NCBI GenBank assembly: GCA_030634715.1 | Contig: DAOWAG010000012.1 | Location: 1 to 12,751, forward strand | DNA length: 12,751 bases | From: Candidatus Aegiribacteria sp. | Lineage (GTDB): Bacteria; Fermentibacterota; Fermentibacteria; Fermentibacterales; Fermentibacteraceae | Direction of reading: 5' to 3' | In this document: one piece after another, positions 4,046 through 8,153 of the stretch | Layout: every line of letters begins with the position of its first letter | How positions within the stretch are numbered: the stretch's first letter is position 1 | The notes under the pieces: generated by a model | What the model saw: the letters and a program-made list of their open reading frames with translations, nothing else | What the model was told of the DNA's origin: nothing | The model's database searches: none | Translations under genes and position numbers: made by a program

Positions 4046-4570
4046 ATGAGTGAAGAAAGAAGTCTGGGCTTTCTGGAAAAGGCAATCCGCCTGATTCCGG
4101 GGTATAAGGGATACAAGCGGAAAGAAGAACGCCGGGATAATGATCAGCTTTTCCGATCAGGGCTTACAGCCAAACTCGATCAGCTCAGAGTCAGAGTAAA
4201 CGAGATACCTGCCAGTCTTCGAGGACCATCAGCGCTGTCGGCCGTGACCGATATTGACAGGGTCACAAAAAAGATTGAAAAAGTAACTGACGAGATTCGT
4301 TTTGCTGCAAGGGGTTATCGAGGGTGGTTCGATATGCATAAAGTCCGCGAGAGCGAGCTGGATAAGCTCTACGCCTTTGATGTAGGACTTGTTGAGAATA
4401 TCGAAGAACTTGAAGAGGCAGTCGTTGTACTTGAAGCTGCTGCAGCTGCCGGATCCGATATGAAGGAAGCTATCAGAAAATTAGTTGATATTCTGATTGA
4501 ATTCAGTAACAAGATGGCTTCCAGAAGTGAACTTATGATCGATCTTGAGAAAAACAAGCCGATTGATTAG
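4046..4570 (+). CDS. Conserved-looking helical protein of unknown function, partner of the SPFH gene
   Basis: I do not recognise this 174-residue protein. It is hydrophilic and charged, without a signal peptide, membrane segment or cysteines. The N-terminal FLEKAIRLIPGYKGYKRKEE resembles an amphipathic lead-in, and the region after it (about 35-85) is rich in Lys, Arg, Glu and Asp with heptad-like spacing (LTAKLDQLRVRVNEI, VTKKIEKVTDEI). A second helical stretch at 115-165 contains ELEEAVVVLEAAAAA and ends in a charged tail. Everything points to an all-alpha, probably coiled-coil cytoplasmic protein. An AGAAAGGA site lies six nucleotides ahead of the ATG. It sits 23 nt upstream of the SPFH gene, in the place where PspA-like coiled-coil proteins accompany YdjI-type SPFH proteins in other bacteria; by position it could play a similar part, but no PspA signature was seen. 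Confidence 0.75.
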   Translation: MSEERSLGFLEKAIRLIPGYKGYKRKEERRDNDQLFRSGLTAKLDQLRVRVNEIPASLRGPSALSAVTDIDRVTKKIEKVTDEIRFAARGYRGWFDMHKVRESELDKLYAFDVGLVENIEELEEAVVVLEAAAAAGSDMKEAIRKLVDILIEFSNKMASRSELMIDLEKNKPID

Positions 4571-5727: not shown

Positions 5728-7389
5728 ATGCCGGGAACCGTACACGAACTGCTTGAAAATACGGCCGCGAGATTACCCGATGTCATTGCTCTGGAAGATG
5801 ACAGCCGGAAACTGACCTATTCCGATTGGCTACGGGTATCCTCGCACATTGCCTGCCTTCTTCAGAGAGCCGGAGCAAAATCCGGATATGTAATCGGCGT
5901 TGTGTCGGATCGATCAGCTCTGCTTCCGTGCGCTTTTACTGCAGTGTCAATGATTGGAGCAAGATTTGTTTCTCTCAATCCCGCCTGGCCTGTCCAGGAG
6001 AGAGAGAGAGTATTCGGAAGATGGTCAGATCGATTAGTGCTGACCGGAATAGCGGGTGCTGCTTTTGAACATTCCGATGAAAAGAATCTCTTTGTTGGCG
6101 AAGATGTATTTGAAGGGAATGAAACACATTGTACCCTTCCGGATATTGATGAAAATGAGGAGTTTTATCTTAACGTAACTTCCGCTTCAACAGGTCAGGC
6201 GAAAATCGCGCCTATTACTCACCGTCAGCTGCTTGCAAATACAGAGGGTGCCTGCAGAACTCTGGGGCTTAATCAGGATGACGTTCATCTGTCTCTGTTC
6301 GGTGTGTTCGGTCATCCCCATGAGCTATTCATGAGAGGTATTTTTCTCGGAGGGAGAACAGTACTGACTGAACGGAGATACCCGAGGGATCTTCTTCAAG
6401 TGATATCCGGAAGTCATGTTACAGCTGTTATGGCTCTTCCAACACAACTTGGAAGCCTGTCTCGTCTCTGGAGAAGAACTGACGCGGATCTCTCCAGAAT
6501 TAGAATTGCAGAAGCCGGGGGGATGCATGTTTCTAACGAGTTCATGGGTGTTTTCACCGAGAGGACAGGTGTTAACCTGATTCCAGTCTGGGGAAGTACG
6601 GAAACAGCCGGAGTCGTGCTTACCGGTAAGTCAGATTCATCCGGATTCACTTCTGTGGTTGATGGATATACCGTTGAACTTCGCGATCTCACCGGGAAAC
6701 CTCTGGAAGGGGATGGCAAAGGTGAATTATGGATTTCAGGCTCCGGAGTAGTTACAAGGTATCTGGGGGATCGACCTCAGACCGAAGAGGCTTTCGTGGA
6801 TGGATGGTACCGAACCGGTGATATGTTCAGAGAAGAAGATGGTCGCCTGATCTTTCTCGGACGAAGAGGAGGATTGATCAAAGCCGCGGGATTGAAAGTG
6901 TACCCACTTGAGGTTGAACTGGCAATACTGAAACATCCCGGAATTGTAGACGTGTGTGTAGTAGGAAGGGATCATCCCACTCGCGGAGAAATGCCTGCTG
7001 CTTACATTGTACCTCGACCTGGCGTTGAGCTGAACGTTGCTGGTATGAGAAGTTTTCTTCGGGAATTCCTTGATGAGCACAAAATACCGAGACTTATCAA
7101 TTTCGTGCACGGACTGCCCAGGACAGTCAGCGGGAAAATTGATAGAAAAGCAGTTGAAACCAGAGAAATAGTCCCAGACTATCGTAGCGAGCTTCTTCGA
7201 TCGGATGTTGAACTTGTTCGTCTGATCAATAACAGGGCTGAATTAATGACAGAAATCGGAGGAGGTTTTGATCCAACCTGGGTGGATGATCAGGAGGACA
7301 ATGCCGTCGGGCATAATCCCGGTCCGATTGCTGACAGTTCATTGAGAGAAATCATCAGATTCATAATCAGTGAACTTGGAAAGGGGTGA
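5728..7389 (+). CDS. AMP-forming acyl/aryl-acid ligase with a C-terminal chorismate-mutase-like (AroQ) domain
   Basis: Residues 1-480 form an ANL-superfamily adenylating enzyme that would activate a carboxylic acid with ATP and probably transfer it to CoA. Motifs: P-loop TSASTGQAK at 151-159 (Ala where Gly is usual), WGSTE at 288-292, YRTGD at 361-365, GRRGGLIKAAGLKVYP at 378-393 (Gly where the hinge Asp/Lys is usual) and SGKIDRK at 468-474 with catalytic K470. Substrate cannot be read from sequence. Residues 484-553 are extra and resemble AroQ chorismate mutase: YRSELLRSDVELVRLINNR aligns without gaps to helix 1 of the E. coli enzyme, with R486, D493 and R503 at the R11, D18 and R28 positions, and NPGPIADSSLREIIRFIISE (530-549) matches the last helix. 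The H1-H2 loop is short and K39, R51 and E52 equivalents appear as F514, W518 and V519, so mutase activity is doubtful. The start follows the SPFH stop directly, and the end overlaps the DAHP synthase gene, whose family often carries this very domain. Confidence 0.85.
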   Translation: MPGTVHELLENTAARLPDVIALEDDSRKLTYSDWLRVSSHIACLLQRAGAKSGYVIGVVSDRSALLPCAFTAVSMIGARFVSLNPAWPVQERERVFGRWSDRLVLTGIAGAAFEHSDEKNLFVGEDVFEGNETHCTLPDIDENEEFYLNVTSASTGQAKIAPITHRQLLANTEGACRTLGLNQDDVHLSLFGVFGHPHELFMRGIFLGGRTVLTERRYPRDLLQVISGSHVTAVMALPTQLGSLSRLWRRTDADLSRIRIAEAGGMHVSNEFMGVFTERTGVNLIPVWGSTETAGVVLTGKSDSSGFTSVVDGYTVELRDLTGKPLEGDGKGELWISGSGVVTRYLGDRPQTEEAFVDGWYRTGDMFREEDGRLIFLGRRGGLIKAAGLKVYPLEVELAILKHPGIVDVCVVGRDHPTRGEMPAAYIVPRPGVELNVAGMRSFLREFLDEHKIPRLINFVHGLPRTVSGKIDRKAVETREIVPDYRSELLRSDVELVRLINNRAELMTEIGGGFDPTWVDDQEDNAVGHNPGPIADSSLREIIRFIISELGKG

Positions 7390-8153
7390 ATTTGGACATC
7401 AGATCTGTGACCGTTGGAGATGTCCATATAGGTACAGGAGCGCCCATCCTGATTGCCGGACCGTGTTCCGTCGAGAATGCAGAGATGCTCAGAGAGATTG
7501 CCAGCGCTGTAGTTGATGCCGGTGTATCGATTCTCAGAGGTGGTTCTTTCAAGCCAAGAACTTCTCCCTATTCCTTTCAGGGACTTGGTCTGGAAGGTCT
7601 TAAGCTTCTCCATTCAGTCAGAAAAGAATTCAATATACCTGTCGTCACCGAAGTAATGGCAATTGATCAGATTGAACTCGCTATGGAACATGCCGATATG
7701 CTTCAGGTTGGTTCCAGGAATATGCATAATTTTTCTTTGCTGTCAGCACTGGGTAAAATTGATATGCCTATACTCCTAAAACGTGGATTCATGGCCACGA
7801 TCGAGGAATGGCTTATGGCCGCTGAGTACCTGGTTAAAGAAGGAAATGACAGAATTGTGCTCTGCGAGCGTGGAATTCGCACCTTTGAAACATGGACAAG
7901 AAACACTCTGGACATTTCTGCTGTCCCTCTTGCCCGGATGCTGGGTGGATATCCTGTCATCGTTGATCCCCGTCACGCATCCGGAAGGAGAGATCTGCTT
8001 GAACCGCTATCTCTTGCGGCTCTCGCTGCGGGGGCAGACGGTATCATGCTTGAAGTGCATCCGGATCCTGATAAGGCTTTGTCCGATGGAGGACAATCAC
8101 TCTCGATACCTGAATTGAGAAAACTGGCCCTGAAACTGTTACATACAAAGTGA
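7386..8153 (+). CDS. aroF: 3-deoxy-7-phosphoheptulonate (DAHP) synthase, type I-beta, without a fused regulatory domain
   Basis: This 255-residue enzyme condenses phosphoenolpyruvate and erythrose-4-phosphate to DAHP, the entry step of the shikimate pathway. Motifs: IAGPCSVEN at 23-31 with metal-ligand C27, GGSFKPRTSPYSFQG, VGSRNMHNFSLL, LLKRGFMATIEEWL, CERGIRTFE, DPRHASGRR (metal-binding His), MLEVHPDP (Glu) and LSDGGQSL (Asp). The KPRTSPYSFQG form separates it from KDO-8-phosphate synthase, its closest relative. Length is that of the bare catalytic domain; the N-terminal AroQ or ferredoxin-like regulatory domain found in many I-beta enzymes is missing, and an AroQ-like domain sits on the preceding protein instead. 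GTG 7386 overlaps the ligase TGA; TTG 7392 has better spacing (5 nt) from AAGGGG at 7381-7386 and may be the true start. A 40-nt gap separates it from pfk. The symbol aroF follows common usage for this family. Confidence 0.93.
   Translation: MNLDIRSVTVGDVHIGTGAPILIAGPCSVENAEMLREIASAVVDAGVSILRGGSFKPRTSPYSFQGLGLEGLKLLHSVRKEFNIPVVTEVMAIDQIELAMEHADMLQVGSRNMHNFSLLSALGKIDMPILLKRGFMATIEEWLMAAEYLVKEGNDRIVLCERGIRTFETWTRNTLDISAVPLARMLGGYPVIVDPRHASGRRDLLEPLSLAALAAGADGIMLEVHPDPDKALSDGGQSLSIPELRKLALKLLHTK

Follow-up and report, generated by a model that had tools for sequence, protein, structure and literature searches.

A putative pseudo-mutase AroQ domain on an adenylating ligase encoded beside DAHP synthase in the Fermentibacterota

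Introduction

AroQ domains with a regulatory role are known from DAHP synthases, of which they form a part. In the AroA(Q)/AroA(G) fusions (3nvt, 5j6f, 5gmu/5go2 and 2d8d), the AroQ domain carries an N-x-G-P motif and is associated with a type I-beta DAHP synthase. In Mycobacterium tuberculosis, the DAHP synthase that partners the mutase-fold protein MtCM is reportedly of type II. To go by the available part of the published account (PMC7762937), MtCM is a free, working mutase that acts with a separately encoded synthase.

The locus described here, from Candidatus Aegiribacteria sp. (Fermentibacterota), shares with the fusions the AroQ subtype, the N-x-G-P motif and the type I-beta synthase, but the domain sits on a separate ANL (acyl-adenylating) ligase, its pocket is degraded, and its first helix and the following loop are shortened. 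It likewise resembles the M. tuberculosis pair (as far as PMC7762937 was available) in that a mutase-fold protein and a synthase are encoded separately, but here the mutase-fold part is an apparent pseudo-mutase at the end of a ligase, and the adjacent synthase is of type I-beta. Two further sets of proteins are close to the ligase itself. The ligase-CM_2 proteins P0226–P0241 belong to the same ligase family, most being 30–34% identical over 98–99% of the query; CM_2 stands in the precomputed Pfam list of 16 out of 16 and exceeded the cut-off in both that were scanned (P0226 and P0235, the latter named from candidate division LCP-89). Unlike the tail described here, they show no long deletion and have lost other pocket residues. 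The second set, tail-less ANL ligases (L172, L176, L178 and others), has the same ligase core but the normal ANL end (other sequence in L183), with no DAHP synthase in the fetched flanks. The literature searched yielded no published account of a ligase-borne AroQ tail beside a DAHP synthase, and the automatic names of P0225 and P0235 already hint at a ligase-mutase arrangement.

Results

The window, meaning the whole stretch of DNA that was analysed, comprises 12,751 nucleotides, and the ligase and synthase genes lie on its forward strand. The ligase (5728..7389, 553 residues) ends in the AroQ-like tail (residues 480–553, 7165..7386), and its stop overlaps the GTG start of the DAHP synthase (7386..8153, 255 residues) by four bases (7386..7389). 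The sequence-only reading had described a bare synthase just downstream of a domain-bearing ligase with this overlap, and the open reading frames and the Pfam match of the synthase, which begins at residue 12, bear it out. An SPFH-domain gene abuts the ligase upstream and a PFK gene follows the synthase (both by Pfam), beyond which GAPDH, PGK and TIM were named by reading of the open reading frames. Further upstream, 4046–4570 encodes a small protein with a weak relation to the NCBIfam LIMLP_15305 family (43 bits against a cut-off of 210); a match was found in eight of 12 related loci, and in all eight it lies upstream of the SPFH gene.

The ligase is an ANL adenylating enzyme, matching Pfam AMP-binding (8e-43) and AMP-binding_C (1.5e-17), and K159 and K470 do not vary among the 27 homologues that were aligned; we take K470 to be the late catalytic lysine of ANL enzymes. 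The ANL homology stops near residues 470–482 (AMP-binding_C at 470, NCBIfam mostly at 470–482 among the matches listed), and no NCBIfam equivalog reached its cut-off among the best 25 matches listed. The same ligase is found in the Aegiribacteria relatives L001, L002 and L011 at 86–91% identity. In genome G006 (L008 and L059) a single in-frame TGA near residue 288 breaks the ligase frame.

The synthase matches Pfam DAHP_synth_1 (2.5e-77) from residue 12 and therefore has no AroQ domain. It belongs to the type I-beta DAHP synthases by its family score (NCBIfam TIGR01361, 364 bits against a cut-off of 268) and by its KPRTS motif, presumably the erythrose 4-phosphate binding site, in which KPR and S are invariant and T is kept in 98 of 100 synthases. 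Its best PDB matches are DAHP synthases, with nearly equal scores for 1rzm, which we take to be of the ferredoxin-like type, and for the AroQ-type 3nvt (292 and 289 bits). Among the 120 relatives listed of 7999, PF18152 (by our understanding a ferredoxin-like regulatory domain), not AroQ, occurs in 20 of the last 21 rows (P0149–P0169). Sixteen synthases were sought for comparison, of which 13 were found.

The sequence-only reading had proposed an AroQ-like domain at the C-terminus of the ligase, and both profile and fold comparisons confirm the resemblance. The isolated last 70 residues match Pfam CM_2 over profile positions 2–74 of 80 (E 8.2e-5), with 23.2 bits against a cut-off of 27, and the same match in a scan of the full-length ligase reaches just E 0.025 and 15.2 bits; the match to NCBIfam CM_A (2.1e-4) is far below cut-off, and the last 82 residues match PDB 2d8d at 6e-4. 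The CM_2 match is more than chance, since CM_2 was matched by 18 of 18 diverse tails at E ≤ 1 (best 7.9e-7), with any other family matching at most two, and since the profile of these 18 rows found 2d8d (1.3e-6), 5gmu (1.1e-4), 3nvt (2.5e-4) and 5j6f (0.02), all AroQ domains of DAHP synthases, ahead of chance matches starting at 0.037. The distant relatives settle the homology: the L174 tail scores 56 bits against CM_2 and 6.5e-13 against 5gmu, compared with 3.1e-3 for 6al9, the best free mutase. An AlphaFold2 model of the tail on 25 rows (pLDDT 90.9) has three helices, not the unlike fold that would have spoken against the proposal. In a Foldseek search with this model, the first 12 matches were DAHP synthase-fused AroQ domains (TM 0.76–0.85, probability 1.00, E just 1.8e-3 to 2.1e-2), with a Helicobacter mutase next in rank. 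By profile comparison, the closest solved relatives of the tail are thus DAHP synthase-fused AroQ domains and not free mutases. Judged by sequence and predicted fold, the tail is an AroQ (CM_2) domain and belongs to the subtype by which type I-beta DAHP synthases are regulated.

In the model, helix 1 spans residues 485–510 (7180..7257; residues 6–31 of the tail) and includes R486, D493 and R503, helix 2 spans residues 516–528 (7273..7311) with W518 and V519, and helix 3 spans residues 536–551 (7333..7380). Alignments to PDB entries place an NPGP loop at residues 530–533 (7315..7326), as in the AroQ domains of DAHP synthases, and match the segment after it to the last AroQ helix, both as claimed in the earlier reading. 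Compared with the Bacillus domain, eight residues are absent between helix 1 and the FDP motif, or seven in tails with an extra Gly.

A search with the tail as query picked out 49 proteins from 95 candidates, and each of the 49 carries an AMP-binding domain; the two alignments of these tailed ligases took 27 and 18 of them. The catalytic residues of AroQ mutases are listed in the available part of PMC5526877 as Arg11', Arg28, Lys39, Asp48, Arg51, Glu52 and Gln88. Mapped on this numbering, the tail retains R486, R503 and D515 at the EcCM Arg11, Arg28 and Asp48 positions (48, 49 and 48 of 49), and the earlier assignment of R486, D493 and R503 to E. coli R11, D18 and R28 holds, these residues being kept in 48/49, 49/49 and 49/49 homologues. 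Of the other positions on the list, the Lys39 stretch is deleted, Arg51 is replaced by W518 (48/49) and Glu52 by V519 (V or L in 49/49), and helix 3 ends before the Gln88 position, which falls beyond the stop. With four positions of a catalytic AroQ chorismate mutase lost, it is very unlikely, as judged from these residues, that the tail is a working mutase. Other tails differ in what they have lost: those of L173–L175, the most canonical AroQ domains seen in this analysis, have canonical spacing and keep Arg51, with Ile, Val and Val at the Lys39 position; L182 has Arg at the Lys39 position; and in P0226 the Arg11 (Phe), Lys39, Asp48 and Arg51 positions have all changed.

The tail is under purifying selection, and the constraint on it is strong and at least equal to that on the enzyme that carries it. 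In all six pairs for which it could be computed, its dN/dS was below that of the core, by a narrow margin in two of them, and mean pairwise identity was 0.74 for the tail and 0.64 for the core, a comparison that favours the tail in that the 49 proteins were found with a tail query.

Within the Fermentibacterota, the tailed ligase occurs in 37 of 42 genomes, and G038 has a 31-residue ligase end at a contig edge. The DAHP synthase directly follows the tailed ligase in 38 of 38 tail-bearing genomes, the ligase-borne AroQ domain beside the synthase being conserved across the phylum. Genome searches of G022, G023, G024 and G039 gave neither the ligase nor a strong-class DAHP_synth_1 match; the sole case viewed of the weaker class (L034) is a KDO8P synthase by reading of its neighbours. 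The ligase-synthase junctions vary among genomes. In L066/L093 and L084 (two genomes) ligase and synthase share one frame with a single stop between them. The domain may, as the sequence-only reading suggested, have moved by a shift of the stop/start boundary, a conjecture on which these in-frame junctions and the nearly equal 1rzm and 3nvt scores of the synthase bear. An uninterrupted ligase-AroQ-synthase frame in L083 (G027) is discounted, since it probably arose in sequencing or assembly: its junction lacks one base relative to L069, and several genes on the contig are split by apparent frameshifts (PFK, GAPDH, SPFH, ligase and an ABC gene are each matched by two open reading frames). The pair is thus encoded as two overlapping genes and not as an AroQ-fused DAHP synthase.

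Outside the phylum, adjacency is less regular. When 385 genomes were searched with a ligase profile, 68 had a match at 1e-100. Of these, 45 lie outside the Fermentibacterota, and the flanks were inspected in 13 of the 45, taken from the top of the ranking. A tailed ligase lies beside a DAHP synthase in three of the 13 (L177, L179 and L182). Seven ligases are tail-less (L172, L176, L178, L180, L181, L183 and L184), and no synthase was found in their fetched flanks. The tailed ligases of L173–L175 overlap or adjoin a GalU-like nucleotidyltransferase gene (by reading), and no DAHP synthase was found in their fetched flanks. The earlier reading had named tailed ligases far from any DAHP synthase as evidence to the contrary, and L173–L175 in part supply it, as far as the fetched flanks show. 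A ligase tree of 38 rows (seven of 45, namely L080, L084, L180, L181, L184, L151 and L156, had no usable open reading frame and were left out) is divided by a branch with support 91/88. All 15 rows with an established neighbouring synthase fall on one side of it; on the other, where tailed and tail-less ligases are mixed, are six rows established to have no synthase next to them and 17 of unexamined context. Taken together, the tree and the flanks outside the phylum indicate that the tail is older or more mobile than its adjacency to the synthase.

These distributions bear on whether the AroQ-like segment might just dimerise or stabilise the ligase, the synthase being a mere operon neighbour. 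The tailed ligases beside the GalU-like gene would fit such a role, as would the dimeric AroQ domains of the solved Bacillus structure (available part of PMC5526877), but the pairing with an adjoining synthase in all 38 tail-bearing Fermentibacterota genomes and in three from outside the phylum, the lack of an adjoining synthase in all seven inspected tail-less relatives, and the affinity of the tail to DAHP synthase-type AroQ domains make this explanation unlikely.

In most genomes of the phylum the aromatic pathway appears truncated. AroC was found in 12 of 42 Fermentibacterota genomes, AroA over cut-off in 12 and a canonical AroQ mutase in 12, and these are the same 12; with controls positive in 14, 14 and 13 of 14, respectively, the searches found none of the three in the other 30 genomes. 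Of these 30, 27 have the ligase-synthase pair, and a shikimate-dehydrogenase-family gene is present in 28 (38 of all 42 genomes). Random incompleteness would hardly account for three genes missing from 30 genomes in which others are retained. Among ten negative genomes checked, a DHQ-synthase-family gene was found in nine and PDT in none. The one AroE and the one AroB tested both score below their NCBIfam cut-offs. From this gene content, most Fermentibacterota seem to be without chorismate synthesis, and the pair therefore probably serves another product.

Two gene settings were observed alongside. In L132 (6801–9982), a shikimate-dehydrogenase-family gene is flanked on one side by a HydE-like radical SAM gene and on the other by a B12-binding radical SAM gene whose nearest family is TIGR04072 (lipid biosynthesis), all three under their NCBIfam cut-offs, and the order of open reading frames is similar in L130 and L133. 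A DHQ-synthase-family gene (L140, 7307–8425; TIGR01357, 274 bits against a cut-off of 305) lies between transporter-like and TatC-like genes (by reading) in L140, L043 and L050, with no other aro genes near it in the stretch fetched.

The pair is also present in 11 AroC-positive genomes. In nine of these the extra synthase matches are just of the weaker class or fragments; with none of its own class seen besides it, the ligase-linked synthase there probably supplies chorismate synthesis too. The remaining two, G042 and G016, each have a further DAHP synthase of the strong class, near trp-like or aro genes. That of G042 (L109) bears additional N-terminal sequence and is next to trpA- and trpG-like open reading frames (by reading); that of G016 (C239, L113) is truncated and located at the end of a contig, together with AroA, AroC and a canonical mutase.

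Against this background it is barely credible that the tail serves as the cell's chorismate mutase. The automatic names of P0225 and P0235 say so, and the tail is the only CM_2 match seen in the 30 AroC-negative genomes, but its catalytic positions are lost, the Lys39 position is occupied by a residue other than Lys in every tail counted (L173–L175, P0226 and P0235, with Arg in L182), 30 of 42 genomes yielded no AroC, and a separate canonical AroQ mutase is present in the 12 that are AroC-positive. Nor does the gene content favour the sequence-only reading's suggestion that the domain senses chorismate or prephenate and relays the signal to the synthase. Such is the known role of these domains in DAHP synthase fusions, where the AroQ domain, once prephenate is bound, is proposed to close over the synthase (available part of PMC5526877) and so inhibits the enzyme it contacts, and the pair does occur in the 11 AroC-positive genomes. 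Yet the 27 genomes that keep the pair without AroA, AroC or a canonical AroQ mutase argue against it, as does the degraded pocket, which recurs in the AroC-positive lineages L072 and L074 (no Lys39 stretch, Trp at the Arg51 and Asn at the Asp48 position); a sensor of either compound is accordingly highly improbable.

The residues at which the tail might meet the synthase give a mixed picture. In the Listeria enzyme, the AroQ-synthase interface includes AroQ F46, L49, R52 and K76 and synthase F163, D326 and V329, as given in the available part of PMC5526877. F46 corresponds to F514, kept in 49 of 49 tails, K76 to R544 (R in 43, K in one and M in five of 49) and D326 to D227, kept in 94 of 100 synthases; F163 corresponds to F64, within a motif kept in 100 of 100 synthases, which tells little. 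The changes L49 to T517, R52 to D520 and V329 to K230 count against a coupling of the two enzymes through the tail. In an AlphaFold2 prediction of the AroQ and synthase stretch of L083, from the frameshifted contig, the AroQ part reached a pLDDT of about 40–58, too low to inform on docking.

Discussion

The preferred reading, to which we give an about even chance, is that the pseudo-mutase tail would act in trans as a docking or gating tail on the neighbouring DAHP synthase. Docking is plausible given the conserved adjacency of the genes, the relationship of the tail to AroQ domains fused to DAHP synthases, and the interface positions that are kept. The tail would dock the ligase onto the synthase, and the ligase, perhaps with its substrate or acyl-AMP bound, would scaffold or gate DAHP synthesis. 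Such coupling is supported by the adjacency in all 38 tail-bearing Fermentibacterota genomes and in L177, L179 and L182, and by the lower dN/dS of the tail in the six pairs. It is weakened by the tails of L173–L175, without a synthase in the fetched flanks, and by the nine AroC-positive genomes in which the synthase probably feeds chorismate.

We favour docking or gating over a purely structural tail and also over a retuned sensor, in which the pocket would bind another acid of the shikimate, dehydroquinate or quinate type and feed back on the synthase. The conservation of R486, R503 and D515 would suit a retuned pocket, as would the DHQ-synthase-family genes in nine of ten genomes and the shikimate-dehydrogenase-family genes in 38 of 42. 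Chlorogenic acid is a quinate ester. The Bacillus domain binds it better than chorismate, according to the available part of PMC5526877, which fits the same idea. With the Lys39, Arg51, Glu52 and Gln88 positions lost in the window tail and Phe at the Arg11 position of P0226, though, a retuned sensor has a rather small chance of being correct.

Under the docking or gating reading, the DAHP made here would, in most Fermentibacterota, be turned by the early shikimate pathway into a product that does not depend on chorismate and that the ligase may help to activate; the 27 of 30 genomes that keep the pair without AroA, AroC or a canonical AroQ mutase support such a product. The fuller proposal, that a retired mutase domain has become a trans-acting coupling subunit on a ligase and controls the synthase heading a truncated, chorismate-free shikimate pathway whose acid product is activated for a cofactor, lipid or glycan, is offered tentatively and is more doubtful as a whole than the docking step within it.

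The regulatory AroQ subtype known as part of DAHP synthases here appears on another enzyme with its chemistry apparently lost. Should the tail couple both enzymes, it would show clearly that a pseudoenzyme domain can link pathways in trans. The phylum retains DAHP synthase and early shikimate-pathway genes, while 30 of 42 genomes yielded neither AroA, AroC nor a canonical AroQ mutase; this combination points to the early steps of the shikimate pathway leading to an unnamed product.
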